A stretch of 16,292 nt of DNA, taken from NCBI GenBank assembly GCA_016215705.1, contig JACRIR010000037.1, positions 1 through 16,292 of the forward strand. Direction: 5' to 3'. The notes beneath the pieces are model-generated. The model saw only the letters and a program-made list of their open reading frames with translations, ran no database searches and was not told the origin of the DNA. Positions 445 through 16,292 of the stretch are shown one piece after another; within the stretch, counting starts at the first letter, position 1; each line of letters opens with the position of its first letter. The translations under genes were made by a program, and so were the position numbers. Source of the stretch: Candidatus Poribacteria bacterium. Its GTDB lineage: Bacteria; Abyssobacteria; SURF-5.

Positions 445-2313
445 GTGTTCTCGCTCATAATCGTTCTTATCCTGCTCTTCATCTTTGCTATCATTGCCAT
501 TCTCATCTGGCCCGTTCTCGGCGACGGCAGCGAATGCCTTCCAAACGCCGAAGAACTCCGATGGTTAAGCTCGACCGCGATTGCCAACGATGAGAAAGGA
601 CGCCAGTCATTCGGGCGCGCCTCGCTCGAACGCCGCGGTGGACTAAGCGTCCTCAAACTGTGCGGCTCACACTACGAAATGGGATACCAGCACGGGATTC
701 TCCTAAGAGACGATATCAGGGGAGGCGCCGTTCCTTTTTATGCAAGACCGACCGAGAACTTCCCGCCGTTCAAACACATGAATGCAATCATGCGAAAGCT
801 TCTGGCCCTATACTTCGATTGGACCATATACCGGCCTTTGCTCAAGTGTTCACCACGACAATACCTGGCCGAACTGAAAGGACTGGCCGATGGAAGCGGT
901 CTGCCATTTGCCGAAGTCCTTCGAGGCAACATGCTCTCCGACTTCAACATGAATCTCATCAAGGTCCTCGAAAAGAAAGCCCTCAAGAAAGTGGGGGAAA
1001 CCGGCTGCACCAGCTTCGCCGCATTCGGCAAGGCGACTACCGACGGCAAGCTCGTCATGGGCCGCAACACCGATTACGCAGGCGGCGGCCTGTGGGACAC
1101 ACATCAAACCGTAGTCTTCTACGAGCCCGACGACGGCTATAAGTTTGTCAGCGTTAGCTCGGCCGGCCTGATCAAATGCAATTCGTGTATGAATGAAAAA
1201 GGAGTCTGCCTCGGCGCACATTTCCTGTTCCTCAACGACACCAGGCCCGACGGCGTCAGTTTCACGTTCCTCGAAATGGATATCATGAAGAAAGCGTCCT
1301 CGGTCGAAGAGGCGCTCGCAATTGTGAAACAGAATCCACGAGCTGGTGCATTTGCGTTCTTGCTGGCTGACGGTAAGTCAAATGAGGCCGTCGTCGTTGA
1401 GGCAAGCGCAAACCACGTCGGCGTGCGCCGGCCTGACGACAGCATAATATGGGAAACGAATATGGGCACGACCGACGAGATCAAACCGGTCGACGTGCTC
1501 CTCAGAAACGGAATCGGCAAAAACCCCATCGCGCGCTTCGAGCGTATGCGCATGCTCGCGAACGAGAACAAAGGCAGAATCAATCCCCAACTGGCGGCTC
1601 AATTCATGGGCGACCACATGGATATGTGCTCCGATAGCCTGCGGCCGGCCGGCGGGATAATTTCGCAAGCCTCGAATCTTACCAGCGCAGTATTCAGCCC
1701 GGCCACTTTCGACTTCTGGGTGGCCGATGGTCTCGCGCCGGTCTGCAACAACACTTATACCGGATTTAACTTTGTGCGCGAACTTTCCGACAGCGACCCG
1801 AAAGTGGAGCCGCCAACGCTTGCCCCGAATGACTATGTCAAGACGCTGGACTACAAGGGACTCAGAAAATTCTATGAGGCCGCAGTGAAATTCATGATCC
1901 CGCCGACGGATGAAGAGGCGGCGCTCGGCAAACTCGAGGAAGCCGCCGCGCTCAGGCCGCGGGAAGCTGTCTACCACAGGATGGCGGCGAAATTGTCGTT
2001 TCGGCTTGGCGAAACTTCCCATGCCGCAGAACATCTTAAACGCGCTCTCGATTGCGTTCAGAGCCCGAGCGAACTCGCACAAACCCACTTGCTCCTCGGA
2101 TTTGCGAACGACCTTCTGGGCAAACGAAATGAGGCGGCAAGCTGTTATGAGTCCGCTCTGAAAGTCCCGAACTCGGACAGGAACGGCGTCCTTTCCGCCG
2201 TCAATCCGTTTGTTCTTGCCGATGCGAAGAAGCACCTGCAGATGCCTTTCACCGCGAATGATGCAAAGAGAATCGAGATAAGCTTCGAACTTACGAGCAA
2301 ATATGACTTGTAA
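445..2313 (+). CDS. C45-family Ntn-hydrolase/acyltransferase, membrane-anchored, with C-terminal TPRs
   Basis: The 622-residue protein begins with a hydrophobic segment (about residues 2-24) that looks like an uncleaved signal anchor, so the enzyme probably faces the periplasm or outside. Residues about 65-450 match the C45 family (acyl-CoA:6-aminopenicillanate acyltransferase-like autoproteolytic Ntn hydrolases). A KLCGSHYEMGYQHG segment lies near 71-84. A GCTSFAA motif places the likely nucleophile and self-cleavage residue at Cys188, and GRNTDY at 206-211 completes the usual core. Residues about 490-580 form two to three TPR-like helical pairs, an unusual addition to the family. The GTG start is supported by GGAGGG at 432-437, about 7 bases upstream, and by the promoter at 368-397. 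The substrate is unknown; acyl transfer or amide hydrolysis is the family expectation. Confidence 0.8.
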   Translation: MFSLIIVLILLFIFAIIAILIWPVLGDGSECLPNAEELRWLSSTAIANDEKGRQSFGRASLERRGGLSVLKLCGSHYEMGYQHGILLRDDIRGGAVPFYARPTENFPPFKHMNAIMRKLLALYFDWTIYRPLLKCSPRQYLAELKGLADGSGLPFAEVLRGNMLSDFNMNLIKVLEKKALKKVGETGCTSFAAFGKATTDGKLVMGRNTDYAGGGLWDTHQTVVFYEPDDGYKFVSVSSAGLIKCNSCMNEKGVCLGAHFLFLNDTRPDGVSFTFLEMDIMKKASSVEEALAIVKQNPRAGAFAFLLADGKSNEAVVVEASANHVGVRRPDDSIIWETNMGTTDEIKPVDVLLRNGIGKNPIARFERMRMLANENKGRINPQLAAQFMGDHMDMCSDSLRPAGGIISQASNLTSAVFSPATFDFWVADGLAPVCNNTYTGFNFVRELSDSDPKVEPPTLAPNDYVKTLDYKGLRKFYEAAVKFMIPPTDEEAALGKLEEAAALRPREAVYHRMAAKLSFRLGETSHAAEHLKRALDCVQSPSELAQTHLLLGFANDLLGKRNEAASCYESALKVPNSDRNGVLSAVNPFVLADAKKHLQMPFTANDAKRIEISFELTSKYDL

Positions 2314-9067: not shown

Positions 9068-9832
9068 ATGGTGGGTGACACTGAACTACGAGCCCTATAT
9101 ATCGGCCTTATTCAGAAGTGCCTGACCAACACCATCTACGAAGACCCCCCAAAAGACCCATGGACCGGCGGCCAATACGACCCGAAGATAAGGGATCGCG
9201 GACTGGATTGGCCCTCGAAAGCGCATACCATGATCGGTACCCAACGCATGACCAATCTCAGGAAACTTACCGAACATGTCATCGCCAACAATGTTCCCGG
9301 CGATCTGATAGAGACCGGCATATGGCGAGGCGGCGCCTGTATCCTCATGCGAGCGATACTTAAGGCCTATGGTGTCATTGATAGAATTGTCTGGTGCGCA
9401 GACTCTTTCGAAGGCTTGCCCAAACCCGACTCGCATCTGTTTCCGCAAGACGCCGGCGATGTCCACCACACATATGATTCGCTCGCTGTTTCACTTGAAG
9501 AGGTAAAAGCCAACTTCACAAGATATGACCTGCTCGATGACCAGGTGAGATTCCTCAAGGGCTGGTTTAAAGACACTCTGCCCACCGCCCCCATCAAGAG
9601 CCTATCCATATTGCGTCTCGATGGCGATATGTACGAATCGACCGCCGAAGCGTTCCTGTACCTCTACGATAAACTGACTCCGGGCGGTTTCGTTATTGTC
9701 GATGACTATGGGGCCCTGGGCGGATGCCGTTCCGCCACCAACGACTTCCGCAGACAGCGCAACATCACCGACCCCATTCAGAATATTGACGGAATAGGTG
9801 TGTTCTGGCAGAAATCTCAAGCAAGCTTCTGA
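9068..9832 (+). CDS. TylF/MycF-family O-methyltransferase
   Basis: A 254-residue SAM-dependent methyltransferase of the macrocin O-methyltransferase (TylF) family, usually acting on sugar hydroxyls with a divalent metal. The SAM-binding motif is DLIETGIWRGGA (79-90). The acidic loop ADSFEGLPKPD (111-121) is a family signature. RLDGDMYES (183-191) and FVIVDDYG (208-215) supply the likely metal-binding aspartates. The ATG at 9068 is chosen over an in-frame upstream start at 9026 because AGGAGGA at 9054-9060 lies 7 bases before it, and the extra upstream residues read as non-conserved. Its place between flagellin and glycosyltransferases suggests it methylates a sugar on flagellin or a surface glycan (inference). 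The last codons overlap a 24-bp near-duplication. Confidence 0.85.
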   Translation: MVGDTELRALYIGLIQKCLTNTIYEDPPKDPWTGGQYDPKIRDRGLDWPSKAHTMIGTQRMTNLRKLTEHVIANNVPGDLIETGIWRGGACILMRAILKAYGVIDRIVWCADSFEGLPKPDSHLFPQDAGDVHHTYDSLAVSLEEVKANFTRYDLLDDQVRFLKGWFKDTLPTAPIKSLSILRLDGDMYESTAEAFLYLYDKLTPGGFVIVDDYGALGGCRSATNDFRRQRNITDPIQNIDGIGVFWQKSQASF

Positions 9833-9852
9833 CAGAAATCTCAGACAAGCTT
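9809..9852. repeat. 24-bp near-tandem duplication across the methyltransferase stop
   Basis: CAGAAATCTCAAGCAAGCTT (9809-9828) recurs as CAGAAATCTCAGACAAGCTT (9833-9852), differing at two bases. The gene's TGA stop falls between the copies, so the duplication may have set the present 3' end. Confidence 0.7.
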
Positions 9853-9880: not shown

Positions 9881-9948
9881 ACAAGGACGCAAGCACTAAA
9901 TTGGGTTGCCATCTGAGGCCACCCGCGAGGACCCAAGCGCATATTTGG

Positions 9949-9971
9949 TAGGGGCGCAATTCATTGCGCCC
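9949..9971. repeat. GTAGGGGCG palindromic repeat
   Basis: After TAG, GGGCGCAAT (9952-9960), a TC spacer and ATTGCGCCC (9963-9971) form a perfect 9-bp inverted repeat. The same element, inverted or with one changed pair, occurs inside the large glycosyltransferase gene at 14573-14596 and 14617-14641. Confidence 0.8.
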
Positions 9972-10013
9972 GAACGAAATCCACAAGAACAAATTTGACA
10001 AATCACTAGACCG

Positions 10014-11930
10014 ATGAACAAAGAAATTTGGAGCCAGGCCCCATCCCTAACCTACAGGGGAATAACACGCAATGTCCCCCTGCAGAACTTCGCCGGACGC
10101 AACTACCTGGCCTACACCGACCCGATCTTGATTGCACAGCTTGAGATCAAAAACGATGAACGCGTGTTGGATGTCGGGGGCGGCGCGGCTCCTTGTTCCC
10201 GCGCGGACGTCGTCACTGACGCATATCTTGATGACGACACGCATCGCGTCGGCAAACCCACGCCAAAAGACAAAAAGTACGTTGAATGTTTTGCCGAGAA
10301 CCTTCTATTCGATGACGGCGAATTCGACGTCGCCATATGCAAACATGTGCTCGAGCACGCAGTTGACCCGGAAGCAGCTTGCAAAGAGATTGCCCGGGTC
10401 GCTCGCCGTGGATACATAGAAACCCCCAGCCCATGGAGCGAGTATTTCTACGGCTATCCTCCCCACCGCTGGATGATATCCGCCGAAAACGGGGTTCTGG
10501 TTTTCCGTCCCAGACCGTTTATCAGAAGTCCTTTCCTGAATTGCCTCCGCTGGATGGAATACTGTGACGCTGATTTCAGCCTCCGGTGGAATCTTGAATA
10601 CAGGAATCTGATAACCACCCAGTTTCCATGGAAGGGGGAAATCCCCTATAGGATCGAATCAGGCGCCGGTTTCAATTATGATGATCCCGAACAGGCATTT
10701 GAGTCTCATTTATCCTTCGTCATAAATGCGCTGCGCTTCGGAGGAGTGCCTGCAGGTGAACTGGAATACGAGGCGCGCGCGGCGCTCAAGTTTCGACCGC
10801 AATCCGCCATCGCTTTCAACGCCCTCGGTGTGGTGCTGCGGCTTGCCAGACAAAATGAGAAAAGCCAGGAAGCCTTCAGTGAAGCGTGCCGACTCGAACC
10901 GAACGATGGAGTCTTTCGTCACAACGCGCAACTACCGCTGAACTCTTCCCAGTGCCAGTTGAAACTTCTTCCTCCTGAGCCGGCAGACTCCGGCCTTCCT
11001 GCTGAAGACTTCGCAGGAAAAGTGTTCTATTCAGGTTCCCGGGAACATGATTCTCTGCTGGCAACTCAGTTGAACATCAAGGACGAAGAAAAGGTCCTTG
11101 ACGTCATGAACCAGGGGAACATTTTCGCCAGAACAAATTTCATCGTGGACGTCAGCGGCGAAACGCTGACTTACCGCAGTGAAAAAGAAACCCGTTTCCT
11201 GGGGTGTGCCCCGCCGTCCGCGTTCACGGCGATGCCGTTCCCGGACGGCTCGCTCGACGTTGCAATTGCGCGCGATGCGCTCGCATACATGGACCACCCA
11301 TCAAAGCTATGTTCGGAAATCCAACGTGTGGCCCGACGCGGCTTCATCGAAGTTCCCCACCATTATTGGGAATACGTGTGGGGAAATCCTAAGCACAGAT
11401 GGCTATGCGCATTCGAGAATGGCGTGTTGGTCTTCAGAAGAAAACCGTTTGCCAAAATCCCCTTCAAGAGTGTGATGGTCCCACTTGTCCTGAAGTTCCC
11501 TGAGCTGCGACATCGGATCGAGGTCTCTCTGCGCAATGTGTCGTTCATCCAGTTGGCATGGGAAGGCCGCTTCGATTTCCGGGTGGAAGACGATCCGGCA
11601 TGTCCCTATGACTATCATCGCCCTAAAGATGCTCTCCTCGCGCACATAGACTGCGGATATAATCTGTGCAACCAGGGCGCGCCACAGGCGGCGTTGCCTG
11701 AAGCTGAAGCGGCCTTGGCAATTGATGGCAACCACCCCGACAGTCTCAATATGCGCGGCCTTATTGCATGGGCCTCGGGACACTATAAGGAAGGACTCGA
11801 GCATGTTCGCCGGGCGGCCGAATTGGCGCCGGAAAACAAAACCATCGCCGAAAACTTCCGCTTCATGCGAGAAAAATACACGCAAATTTCAGCAAACAAA
11901 GACACCGGAGATAAGCAACCGAGAACATAG
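10014..11930 (+). CDS. Tandem class I methyltransferase / TPR protein with degenerate second domain
   Basis: A 638-residue protein made of two homologous halves. Half one (about 25-235) is a type-11-like SAM methyltransferase: motif I VLDVGGGAAP (51-60), an acidic strand end at VTDAYLDD, then FDVAICKHVLEH (104-115). A TPR-like pair follows (about 250-296). Half two (about 335-530) repeats the order and shares RVARRG, HRW and ENGVLVFR with half one, but motif I has become VLDVMNQGNI (361-370) and the HVLEH equivalent is DALAYM, so it is probably inactive for SAM binding. A second TPR block ends the protein (about 540-615). The ATG at 10014 lacks a strong Shine-Dalgarno. It lies 181 bases after the TylF-like gene on the same strand. 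A glycan or protein methylation role is inferred only from context. Confidence 0.75.
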   Translation: MNKEIWSQAPSLTYRGITRNVPLQNFAGRNYLAYTDPILIAQLEIKNDERVLDVGGGAAPCSRADVVTDAYLDDDTHRVGKPTPKDKKYVECFAENLLFDDGEFDVAICKHVLEHAVDPEAACKEIARVARRGYIETPSPWSEYFYGYPPHRWMISAENGVLVFRPRPFIRSPFLNCLRWMEYCDADFSLRWNLEYRNLITTQFPWKGEIPYRIESGAGFNYDDPEQAFESHLSFVINALRFGGVPAGELEYEARAALKFRPQSAIAFNALGVVLRLARQNEKSQEAFSEACRLEPNDGVFRHNAQLPLNSSQCQLKLLPPEPADSGLPAEDFAGKVFYSGSREHDSLLATQLNIKDEEKVLDVMNQGNIFARTNFIVDVSGETLTYRSEKETRFLGCAPPSAFTAMPFPDGSLDVAIARDALAYMDHPSKLCSEIQRVARRGFIEVPHHYWEYVWGNPKHRWLCAFENGVLVFRRKPFAKIPFKSVMVPLVLKFPELRHRIEVSLRNVSFIQLAWEGRFDFRVEDDPACPYDYHRPKDALLAHIDCGYNLCNQGAPQAALPEAEAALAIDGNHPDSLNMRGLIAWASGHYKEGLEHVRRAAELAPENKTIAENFRFMREKYTQISANKDTGDKQPRT

Positions 11931-11934
11931 AATC

Positions 11935-11983
11935 CAACGAAAAACGGGGACACGGTGCGGCATCATGTCCCCGTTTTTCGTTG
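11935..11983. terminator. Bidirectional terminator, 18-bp perfect stem between convergent genes
   Basis: Arms 11935-11952 and 11966-11983 are exact reverse complements with a 13-base loop. The stem has a GC-rich inner part (CGGGGACA) and an A5/T5 outer part, so either strand ends in a U-tract. It lies between the end of the plus-strand methyltransferase (11930) and the end of the minus-strand glycosyltransferase (11999), as expected for a shared terminator. Its core is related to the palindrome at 13091-13127. Confidence 0.8.
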
Positions 11984-12868: not shown

Positions 12869-13090
12869 CTAATCATCTCCATTTCCCTTCGGGGGAGAGG
12901 GAAACTAATTGCCCCGCCTTTGATGAAGAGGGAATGGGGGAATTCTACCTCATTAACTCATATCGGCATATTTTGCCGAAGATTGAGTGGTTAGACGCTC
13001 CGCTCTCCATTGCGCTAAACCCATTGAACTCAAGGAAGACGCGCATATTGCCGATATAACTCGTGACGCGATCAGTCGCAGGCGAAGGTT

Positions 13091-13127
13091 AAATTGGGGA
13101 CACCATGCCGCATGGTGTCCCCAATTT
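13091..13127. repeat. 17-bp perfect palindromic repeat, GGGGACA family
   Basis: Arms 13091-13107 and 13111-13127 are exact reverse complements with a 3-base CCG loop. The core GGGGACACCATGCCGCATGG followed by TGTCCCC matches 22 of 27 positions of the core at 11946-11972. The flanking A/T arms differ between the two sites but are self-complementary in each, which suggests a dispersed palindromic element rather than a chance terminator. Confidence 0.8.
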
Positions 13128-13240
13128 GACCGGAACCAGCCGGACAATTTGTGAAGGTCGCCCCGTGAGAATTACGGCAGACATTCAAGAAATTGACGGT
13201 AAGCAATGCGAAACACCTTTCGGGAGAAGGATGAGTTCAT

Positions 13241-16200
13241 ATGAAAAGAAAAAAGCGGAATAGAAACCCGCATGCGCCGTCAATTGCGCTCTGTATGATA
13301 GTCAAGAATGAAGCCGCAAATCTTGAACGCTGCCTCAAGACCGTACAACCACTTGTATCCGAAATCAATATTGTGGATACAGGTTCGACCGACAACACCA
13401 TAGAAATAGCGAGACGCAATGGAGCGAGTGTGCAAGCGGAGCAGTGGATGAACGACTATAGCCGCCCGCGAAACACTTCTCTCAAAATGGCGTCAGCCGA
13501 CTGGATTCTTGTACTCGACGCCGATGAGACCCTGGATTCCGACGCAATCGCAACGATCAGGGTGGCAGTCCGCAAGCCCGGCATCGCCGGATACGTTCTC
13601 CCCACCCGCAACTACATGGACGACTCGTCGGTCGCCAATTTCGTCCCGAATGACGGAAGCTGCGAGCTTGCGCGCGCATTCAAGGGATGGGTGGAATCCC
13701 GAAAGGTCCGCCTTTTCAGGCGGCGCCCCGGCATACAGTTCGAGGGCGAGATTCACGAGGTCATCGGGCCCTCCATCCGGCGCGCCAACGGAAGAACCGA
13801 ATTCCTAGACGCCGTCGTCCACCATTTTGGTTTTCTTGCGCCCGTGGGCTCACTCAAAGAGAAGACCCGGAAAATGGCAGCGCTCGCCGAGGCGAAGTGC
13901 GCCGGCCGGAACGGCAACTGCCAAGCGCATTACGAACTCGGCGTCATCTCGGCCAAACTCGACAACCTCGAAAAAGCAGAGAGTTGTTTCAGAAAAGCAA
14001 TTGCGCTTCGATATGATTTTGCGCTGGCCCATTATGATCTGGCAGTCGTTCTTGCCAGGATGGGTCGCAACGAAGAAGCAGTCTCGGAATACCGGTCAAC
14101 GCTCAAGCTCGATCCGAATAATGCCGATGCCCTGTGCAACCTCGCGGTCTGTCTGCAAAAACTACACTGCGATAAGGATGCCGAAGAAACGTACCGCTCG
14201 CTCCTTGAGAAGCATCCACTCGATACGCGAGGATGGAACAATCTTGGCGCGCTGTTGGCATCGGCCGGCAGATTGACGGAGGCCGAGCAATCGTTTGAAA
14301 ACGCCGTCCGGATCGATCCGGACTTCTCCCTCTCGCTCCAAAACTTGGAGAGCATCCGAACACTGCGAGCAGGGAGAGCGAATCAATCCGACGCCTCAGC
14401 GAAACACCCAATCCAGACTGTAGGGGCGTCCAGCCCCAGCGGGACCGCGCCCTCTTCTGATTCTGTGGGTGCGAATTCATTCGCACGATTTCTGCCCTCT
14501 GAACTACTCACGCCCAAAATCATGAATTCTCGTCGTGATTTCTTGCACGAACCTAACGCATATCAATCACACGGGCGCAATGAATTGCGCCCCTACACAC
14601 ACGAATCAAGAAATCCTGTAGGGGCGCGATTCATCGCGCCCGATGCGCGCTGGTTGCGGCTATGCCGCGCTGAGAACTCCGCGGCCTCTATGGCCGGCAA
14701 GAATTCCCCAACCCTAGCCCTCATCATGATCGTGAAAGATGAGCAGGACAACCTCAGCGAATTACTTCCCGCAATCTCTTCTTGTTTCGACGAAATCGTC
14801 ATCGTTGACACAGGCTCCAGCGACAAAACCGTCGAGATCGCCCAAACGTTCACGGAAAAGGTGTTTCATTTCGCATGGAACGATGACTTCTCAGCGGCAA
14901 GAAACTTCGCGCTCTCGAAAGCCCGGTCCGACTGGATTCTCTGGCTCGATGCCGATGACAGGATGAAGCCGGAAGATGTCTCTCTGATGAAGGTCCATAT
15001 CTCGAGCGCAAACAAGGCATTCTTGCTCAAAGTTGTGTCCTCCGCCGGCGGCGCCGACGCAGCCGAGTTCATTCAACTTCGCCTTTTCCCGAACCTCGTG
15101 GGGATCGCGTGGGAAGGCCGAATACACGAACAAATTCTCCCGTCGATGAAGCGAAAAGGATTGGAGTTTGAGCTGTTGGCCGAAGCGTCCATTATTCACA
15201 CGGGATACAACGACGCGAATATCCTGAAAAAGAAAACCCTTCGCAATATAGCCCTGCTGGAGAAGGAACAAGAGTGCAGACCCGATGATTCCAATGTCCT
15301 GCACCACCTCGCGCAGGCTTACGCCATTATGGGCGATATCGACAAAGCCATCGAGGTTTCGGAAACTCTCGTGCATATTCTCCGTGAACACCCGATAAGT
15401 GAGTTCCTGACATCTGCAATAAACCGGCTGATACAGTGGAATCTCTTCAAAAGAGACATCGACACGGCGCATGAATGGTGCAAGCGGCTGCTCGCAATGG
15501 AACCGCAGAACCGGCTCCTGCGCTTCTTCATGGGAGAGATTCATTATCGGAAAGAACTGTTCGATGAGGCCATAGACTGGTTCACGCAATTCTGCGCCGC
15601 GAAGGAAACGATCGGCCTCACACCGGTTCCCTGGGCTGCCCTCGATGCAAACGCGCATAACTACCTCGGCCTCGCCTTCAAGCAAACGGGGCGGCGTGAA
15701 GACGCGCGCGCCGAATGGCGCACGGCGATTCACCTTGGCGCCAAGGTCGAGGCATATAAGAACCTCGCCCTGATGTGTCTCGAGGACGGCAATGCCCCCG
15801 AAGCGGAATCGGCGCTGCGCGCAGCGTTGGAACGCGGATACAGCGATGCCGATATCTGGAATAATCTGGGCGTTGCCCTTGCTCGCGCGCACAGGTTTAT
15901 TGAGGCTGCCGACGCATTCCGCAAGGCGCTCTTTCTCGATCCCTCCAACGCCGCAATGCGCGGAAACCTCGACCGCATAGAACATGAAACACGCCGCCAA
16001 CTCAGCCTGAACATGATTGTCCGTGACGAAGAAAAGAATCTCCCGGAAATCCTCGCGCCTATCGCGAATCTCTTCGATGAGATAATCATCGTCGACACGG
16101 GCTCGAAGGATAATACGGTCGCCATAGCCGAACAGTTCGGCGCTCGGGTCATTCGGCATCGATGGAACGACAACTTTGCCGACGCGAGAAATGCCGCGCT

Positions 16201-16292
16201 CAATGCCAGCACGGGCAAATGGGTCTTCTGGCTCGACGCGGATGACAGAATCGAGCCCCGGGCAGTGCGTACGCTCCGCAAGTTCATCGAGC
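13241..16292 (+). CDS. Large multi-domain GT2/TPR glycosyltransferase, open at the right edge
   Basis: Reading from the ATG at 13241 (GGGAGAAGG at 13222-13230 upstream) gives 1017 codons without a stop to the window edge, so the gene is partial. Domain 1 (about 15-200) is a GT2 fold: CMIVKNE (18-24), DTGSTD (46-51), LDADET (92-97). TPRs follow at about 225-375. A Ser/Pro/Asn-rich linker (376-488) is built from intergenic-type repeats. GT2 domain 2 (about 491-655) has IMIVKDE, DTGSSD (523-528) and LDADD (569-573). TPR-like helices run about 680-910. GT2 domain 3 starts near 920 with NMIVRDE, DTGSKD (952-957) and LDADD (998-1002). The DxD-type motifs are intact in all three. Such GT2-TPR proteins transfer sugars to proteins or glycans; flagellin next door is a plausible target (inference). 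The GT2 call is firm, the acceptor is not. Confidence 0.88.
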   Translation, partial: MKRKKRNRNPHAPSIALCMIVKNEAANLERCLKTVQPLVSEINIVDTGSTDNTIEIARRNGASVQAEQWMNDYSRPRNTSLKMASADWILVLDADETLDSDAIATIRVAVRKPGIAGYVLPTRNYMDDSSVANFVPNDGSCELARAFKGWVESRKVRLFRRRPGIQFEGEIHEVIGPSIRRANGRTEFLDAVVHHFGFLAPVGSLKEKTRKMAALAEAKCAGRNGNCQAHYELGVISAKLDNLEKAESCFRKAIALRYDFALAHYDLAVVLARMGRNEEAVSEYRSTLKLDPNNADALCNLAVCLQKLHCDKDAEETYRSLLEKHPLDTRGWNNLGALLASAGRLTEAEQSFENAVRIDPDFSLSLQNLESIRTLRAGRANQSDASAKHPIQTVGASSPSGTAPSSDSVGANSFARFLPSELLTPKIMNSRRDFLHEPNAYQSHGRNELRPYTHESRNPVGARFIAPDARWLRLCRAENSAASMAGKNSPTLALIMIVKDEQDNLSELLPAISSCFDEIVIVDTGSSDKTVEIAQTFTEKVFHFAWNDDFSAARNFALSKARSDWILWLDADDRMKPEDVSLMKVHISSANKAFLLKVVSSAGGADAAEFIQLRLFPNLVGIAWEGRIHEQILPSMKRKGLEFELLAEASIIHTGYNDANILKKKTLRNIALLEKEQECRPDDSNVLHHLAQAYAIMGDIDKAIEVSETLVHILREHPISEFLTSAINRLIQWNLFKRDIDTAHEWCKRLLAMEPQNRLLRFFMGEIHYRKELFDEAIDWFTQFCAAKETIGLTPVPWAALDANAHNYLGLAFKQTGRREDARAEWRTAIHLGAKVEAYKNLALMCLEDGNAPEAESALRAALERGYSDADIWNNLGVALARAHRFIEAADAFRKALFLDPSNAAMRGNLDRIEHETRRQLSLNMIVRDEEKNLPEILAPIANLFDEIIIVDTGSKDNTVAIAEQFGARVIRHRWNDNFADARNAALNASTGKWVFWLDADDRIEPRAVRTLRKFIE
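14418..14451. repeat. GTAGGGGCG-type repeat within the GT gene, diverged copy
   Basis: GTAGGGGCGTCCAGCCCCAG and the following bases to GCGCCC begin with the same motif as the copy at 14617-14641. It is read in frame as TVGASSPSG in the linker of the large glycosyltransferase. Confidence 0.5.
14469..14486. repeat. Palindromic repeat GTGCGAAT-TC-ATTCGCAC in the GT linker
   Basis: Perfect 8-bp arms around TC, with the same ATTCAT centre as the copies at 9952-9971 and 14622-14641. It is read in frame within the glycosyltransferase linker. Confidence 0.7.
14573..14596. repeat. GTAGGGGCG palindromic repeat, inverted copy in the GT linker
   Basis: GGGCGCAAT (14573-14581), GA, ATTGCGCCC (14584-14592) then CTAC: this is the exact reverse complement of the intergenic element at 9949-9971. 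It is translated in frame as GRNELRPY. Confidence 0.8.
14617..14641. repeat. GTAGGGGCG palindromic repeat, direct copy in the GT linker
   Basis: GTAGGGGCGCGATTCATCGC followed by GCCC, with perfect 9-bp arms 14622-14630 and 14633-14641 around TC. Relative to the 9949 copy, one base pair of the stem has changed on both arms (A to G and T to C), a compensated change that keeps the palindrome. Confidence 0.8.

Follow-up and report, generated by a model that had tools for sequence, protein, structure and literature searches.

Probable insertion of a GTAG-type REP mosaic into the existing linker of a multi-module GT2-TPR glycosyltransferase

REP doublets of the BIME/REPIN type are thought to be mobilized by RAYTs. 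GTAG REPs consist of a GTAG end and a short palindromic stem-loop, occur in high copy number and are mostly intergenic; they form tail-to-tail dimers with spacers of 20–100 bp, and when they are located within genes, some of them code for 20–30 amino acids and clusters for 43–82 amino acids (Di Nocera et al. 2013, PMC3733652). Rickettsia palindromic elements (RPEs) are palindromic, about 150 bp long, code for a conserved peptide and are tolerated in frame in unrelated genes; nearly half of them reside in genes (PMC10969869).

The repeat analyzed here is read in frame in a glycosyltransferase gene on contig C186 of genome G000 (5.47 Mb, 270 contigs). This contig is the window, that is, the whole stretch of 16,292 nucleotides that was analyzed. 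Just like GTAG REPs, the repeat is a GTAG-ended stem-loop of 20–40 bp that is dispersed in high copy number, forms inverted dimers and is mostly intergenic with some copies in genes, but the dimer in the window is embedded in a longer mosaic of 174 bp. With BIMEs and REPINs it shares the presence of two inverted REPs, the conserved spacer, the mosaic make-up and the absence of a target-site duplication. In-frame insertion in otherwise conserved genes, that is, at two sites in the GT2-TPR gene and also in the genes for pyruvate dehydrogenase (PDH) E2 and CobU, none of which is shared by the relatives examined, is a trait in common with RPEs. The latter, however, are known from Rickettsia and its relatives whereas the host studied here belongs to a phylum other than Pseudomonadota, and in-frame copies are rare here, accounting for only a few per cent. 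The likeness to RPEs is one by description and, as far as the phylum tells, the element is probably not an RPE by descent. The phenomenon as such is already known from RPEs and from GTAG REPs situated within genes and calls for no new mechanism; with the present case, which includes an outgroup comparison, REP-type repeats captured in frame become known from a small and poorly sampled candidate phylum as well.

The reading frame of the glycosyltransferase gene runs from position 13,241 to the end of the window without a stop codon, also across 14,418–14,641 where the palindromes are concentrated (Table 1). The remainder of the gene is located on contig C235 of the same genome, joined by an exact overlap of 141 bp, and the entire protein comprises 1306 amino acids. 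When modeled with AlphaFold2 on the basis of a shallow alignment of three orthologues, linker residues 378–488 obtained pLDDT values below 50 with flanks mostly at 70–90, and the linker is predicted to be disordered. In the translated sequence, residues 420–477 include the peptide strings NELRPYTHESR and NPVGARFIAPDAR.

Table 1. Location of the gene, its linker and the repeats discussed in the text. Positions are those of the window unless a locus or contig is given.
Feature	Position	Strand	Basis or remark
GT2-TPR multi-module glycosyltransferase gene	13241..16292	+	Pfam Glycos_transf_2 (three) and TPRs
Linker, residues 378–488	14372..14704	+	between TPR block 1 and GT2 domain 2
Degenerate GTAG palindrome (GTAGGGGCGTCCAGCCCCAGCGGGACCGCGCCC)	14420..14452	+	four relatives in fetched loci; weak fold, z −1.6
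REP2 palindrome GTGGGTGCGAATTCATTCGCAC, coding VGANSFA	14465..14486	+	single-strand fold, z −3.6
Composite dispersed element, BIME-like mosaic, 174 bp	14499..14672	+	26 near-full-length own-genome copies aligned
5′ hairpin of element (AAATCATGAATTC...GTGATTT)	14517..14541	+	conserved in copies; fold
REP1 arm (GTAGGGGCGCAATTCATTGCGCCCG on − strand), coding GRNELRPY on +	14572..14596	−	fold, z −4.1
Spacer of tail-to-tail REP dimer, 21 nt	14597..14617	.	arm spacing of 45 bp recurs among many copies in the genome
REP1 arm GTAGGGGCGCGATTCATCGCGCCC, coding VGARFIAP; compensated variant	14618..14641	+	fold, z −4.7
REP1, single intergenic copy in the window	9948..9972	+	25-nt match to linker arm
C-terminal REP2 cluster, VDANSFAHEDSVGADSV...VGANSFAH	L071 (G000:C235) about 540–690		
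PDH E2, single GTAG REP1, coding VGARFIAP	L036 1501–1524 = G000:C52:31313–31336		
CobU with REP2 palindrome	L131 1401–2102 = G000:C113	−	

An earlier note on this DNA had described up to four palindromes in both orientations in the linker, one of them the exact reverse complement of an intergenic copy and another with a compensated base-pair change, all traversed by an open frame, and all of these observations were borne out. Three of the palindromes are strong, while the fourth is a degenerate copy of the form GTAGGGGCGTCC...GGGACCGCGCCC; only the upstream REP1 arm lies on the minus strand. This arm is 100% identical over its 25 nt to the reverse complement of the intergenic copy, which is flanked by an ORF ending at 9832 and another one starting at 10,014. 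Members of the REP1 family follow the pattern GTAG + GGGCGC[AG]AT TC AT[TC]GCGCCC. We collected 124 distinct REP1 sites, which are not a random sample as they comprise the first 100 places in the order of contig numbers and, in addition, the best of the full-length copies. The variable stem pair is A-T at 67 of these sites, G-C at 53, G-T at three and A-C at one, such that pairing is kept in 123 of 124 cases, and the compensated change from A-T to G-C is a covariation across the whole family. None of 200 shuffles folded as well as the palindromic stretch of the linker, and the long hairpin of the linker repeat is very stable (z −6.1).

Regarding the size of the repeat, the earlier description was right for the palindromes but fell short of the true unit. 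A search of the own genome with 14,400–14,660 showed that a larger segment, the 174-bp element, recurs in dozens of places with about 76–93% identity; its ends are uncertain by 1–2 bases. Near-full-length copies measure about 173–183 bp, or 207–211 bp where an extra GGGGACAC palindrome occupies the spacer. The element starts with CTGTACTACTCAC, continues with the hairpin and two GTAG-headed REPs, the GTAG ends of which face each other across the spacer, and finishes with GGTTGCGGCTATGCCGCGCTG. The inverted −/+ REP1 arms are spaced 45 bp start-to-start in many copies. The last 22 bases of the element occur alone in a sister genus, and the unit is therefore a mosaic. Two further palindromes, including the degenerate one, precede it in the linker. 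The ends of the element match at only 8 of 20 positions and are not inverted repeats, and a target-site duplication was not found at its borders (flank similarity of 3.24 vs. 3.21 in shuffles). This is as expected of REPs and was counted in favor of that explanation; classification as a classical MITE was rejected on these grounds. A search for Rfam families in the window returned no match to the element. Intergenic inverted repeats that are nearly perfect and have GGGGACAC at their core are also present at 11,935–11,983 and 13,087–13,131 of the window, and in some of the copies in the genome, for example L010, L082 and L086, a palindrome of this type is nested in the spacer between the REPs.

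At up to two mismatches, REP1 has 243 matches in its own genome and REP2 has 52, compared with none for either reversed control pattern; the abundance of REP1 is far above chance. In two sister genera of the same phylum, represented by G002 and G001, 50 and four REP1 matches were detected, respectively. As estimated from the sampled stretches, only three of the 124 REP1 sites are located well within conserved coding regions, two of them belonging to the window gene and the third to that for PDH E2 (dihydrolipoamide acyltransferase); if nothing but the length of the ORF is considered, the number rises to at most 15 of 124. Given that coding sequence takes up about 88% of the window according to the ORF list, the intergenic bias is strong. 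This part of the earlier interpretation is therefore supported: a dispersed repeat found overwhelmingly between genes contributes in frame to a linker. Other long ORFs that extend across REPs (for example AroA-like, URO-D-like and D-Ala-D-Ala carboxypeptidase) were discarded as read-through upstream or downstream of real genes, a judgment based on where the repeat is situated in the ORF and on reading of the sequence, for the carboxypeptidase also on Pfam. Contigs C20, C39 and C145 have ends that are no more than about 2 bp away from a REP1 copy. REP repeats break the assembly, and our REP counts are therefore probably underestimates.

How does such a repeat come to be part of an open reading frame? 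Among the 26 aligned copies, frame +2 of the element is open in 11, the other five frames in 2, 0, 0, 1 and 0, and it is this usually open frame in which the window copy is read. The closest copies have TAA where the window copy has CAA at 14,564 and contain 4 bp more near 14,651; reverting one or the other in silico closes the ORF of the window at residue 442 or 479, respectively. These two changes are private to the window copy and, though seen in one copy only, are suggestive of the survival of frame-keeping changes. In silico excision of exactly 14,499–14,672 produced a stop codon at the join, a result that was set aside in view of the uncertain ends.

We consider it very likely that a GTAG-type REP mosaic and the two neighboring palindromes were inserted into the pre-existing linker of an already fused GT2-TPR glycosyltransferase. 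The 174-bp unit with its tail-to-tail dimer, and alongside it two single palindromes, would have entered an existing flexible linker by REP mobilization, possibly with the help of a Y1/RAYT-type transposase that uses single-stranded DNA as substrate. The insertion would have survived for three reasons: it landed in the one frame and orientation in which the element is usually open, the linker segment that it hit is not constrained by folding, and the frame was kept open by small changes in the window copy. The element would now code for about 58 residues that are predicted to be disordered, and the protein with the inserted linker presumably still works. As to the putative mobilizing enzyme, REP1 was not seen in the available DNA beside any of the three Y1_Tnp genes of the genome, two of which start at contig ends, nor did this DNA contain a RAYT gene flanked by a REP of the window type; in G002, a Y1_Tnp gene has a REP2-like palindrome at a distance of about 240 bp.

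The linker is not the only place where such repeats are read in frame. The C-terminal TPR region of the glycosyltransferase harbors another in-frame insertion, about 50 amino acids long, which consists of REP2-like units and is without counterpart in both relatives. The single REP1 in PDH E2 sits in the Lys/Glu-rich interdomain linker of the lipoyl/E3-binding region, and an in-frame stretch with a REP2 palindrome adds about 52 residues to the CobU protein of G000 (223 residues span 166 positions of the Pfam CobU profile); neither is present in the respective orthologue from G001. Four separate in-frame insertions are tolerated alongside the strong intergenic bias. It is conceivable but unlikely that REP mosaics in this phylum serve as a recurrent source of frame-compatible disordered linkers, some of which are not just tolerated but maintained by selection. 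That the REP-coded linker in the window gene was itself selected, either as a longer tether between two GT2 modules or for a translational pause brought about by its hairpin, appears improbable to us. The stability of the hairpin would fit this idea, as would a linker about 40 residues longer than that of G002 and the fact that three of the four in-frame insertions in the sampled genes affect the GT2-TPR protein or another interdomain linker; however, the same element is found everywhere in non-coding DNA, and the linkers of the relatives are shorter and different.

An open frame could also be a coincidence if the element had inserted in a decaying gene, be it a pseudogene or a gene in two parts. 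Indeed, frame +2 is open in a good part of the copies anyway, and the open frame alone is therefore weak evidence of selection. Still, decay is very unlikely, as the entire frame of 1306 amino acids is intact despite two separate insertions, the GT2 domains and TPRs are good Pfam matches, and the two private changes both preserve the frame.

According to the earlier note, insertion of the repeat had fused two originally separate GT2-TPR genes, or a former intergenic region had been captured as coding linker. This is a tempting reading, because the repeat is normally intergenic and the repeat-rich, unstructured join is situated right between two modules. The orthologues, however, are single multi-module GT2-TPR frames devoid of the repeat, comprising 1592 codons in G002 (contig C44) and 1125 codons in G001 (contig C110), and a homologue consisting of two adjacent genes was not seen in either of these relatives. 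In G002, module 1 is followed by a linker of about 57–68 residues and module 2, the same order as in the window gene. Fusion therefore predates the repeat. On this sequence comparison, the repeat did not create the fused gene but entered an existing linker, and both variants of the earlier proposal are highly improbable. The orthologous modules are 51–56% identical and the linkers have diverged in length and sequence, which is why the exact empty site is unreadable; the G002 linker has an additional TPR-like stretch, so that replacement instead of plain insertion is possible. Two findings had been named as speaking against the proposal, repeat-free homologues with a conserved linker of equal length and a motif that is generally tolerated in coding sequence. 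Homologues free of the repeat do exist, but their linkers are not conserved and the repeat is rarely coding, so neither applies in full.

A chimeric join induced by the repeat in a fragmented metagenome bin is likewise extremely unlikely, since, for all the 270 contigs and the three contig ends at REP1 copies, the same module order is found in G002, the reading frame continues through the join and even the closest of the other element copies share only 89–91% identity with that in the window, well below the level at which copies collapse.

Comparison of the window gene with its counterparts in L069 and L070 yielded module orders of 1-2-4, 1-2-3-4 and 1-3-4 for the three genera, which suggests gain or loss of modules by recombination. 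Other repeats in the window comprise a perfect intergenic inverted repeat of 26 bp (CGTCATTCTGAGCGAAGCGAAGAATC; 2366–2391 and 2423–2448), a tandem duplication of 24 bp at the 3′ end of a TylF-like methyltransferase gene (9803–9850) and, at 245–330 in what is probably non-coding DNA, tandem-like 14-bp repeats (ACCGTAAACCATAAACC...).
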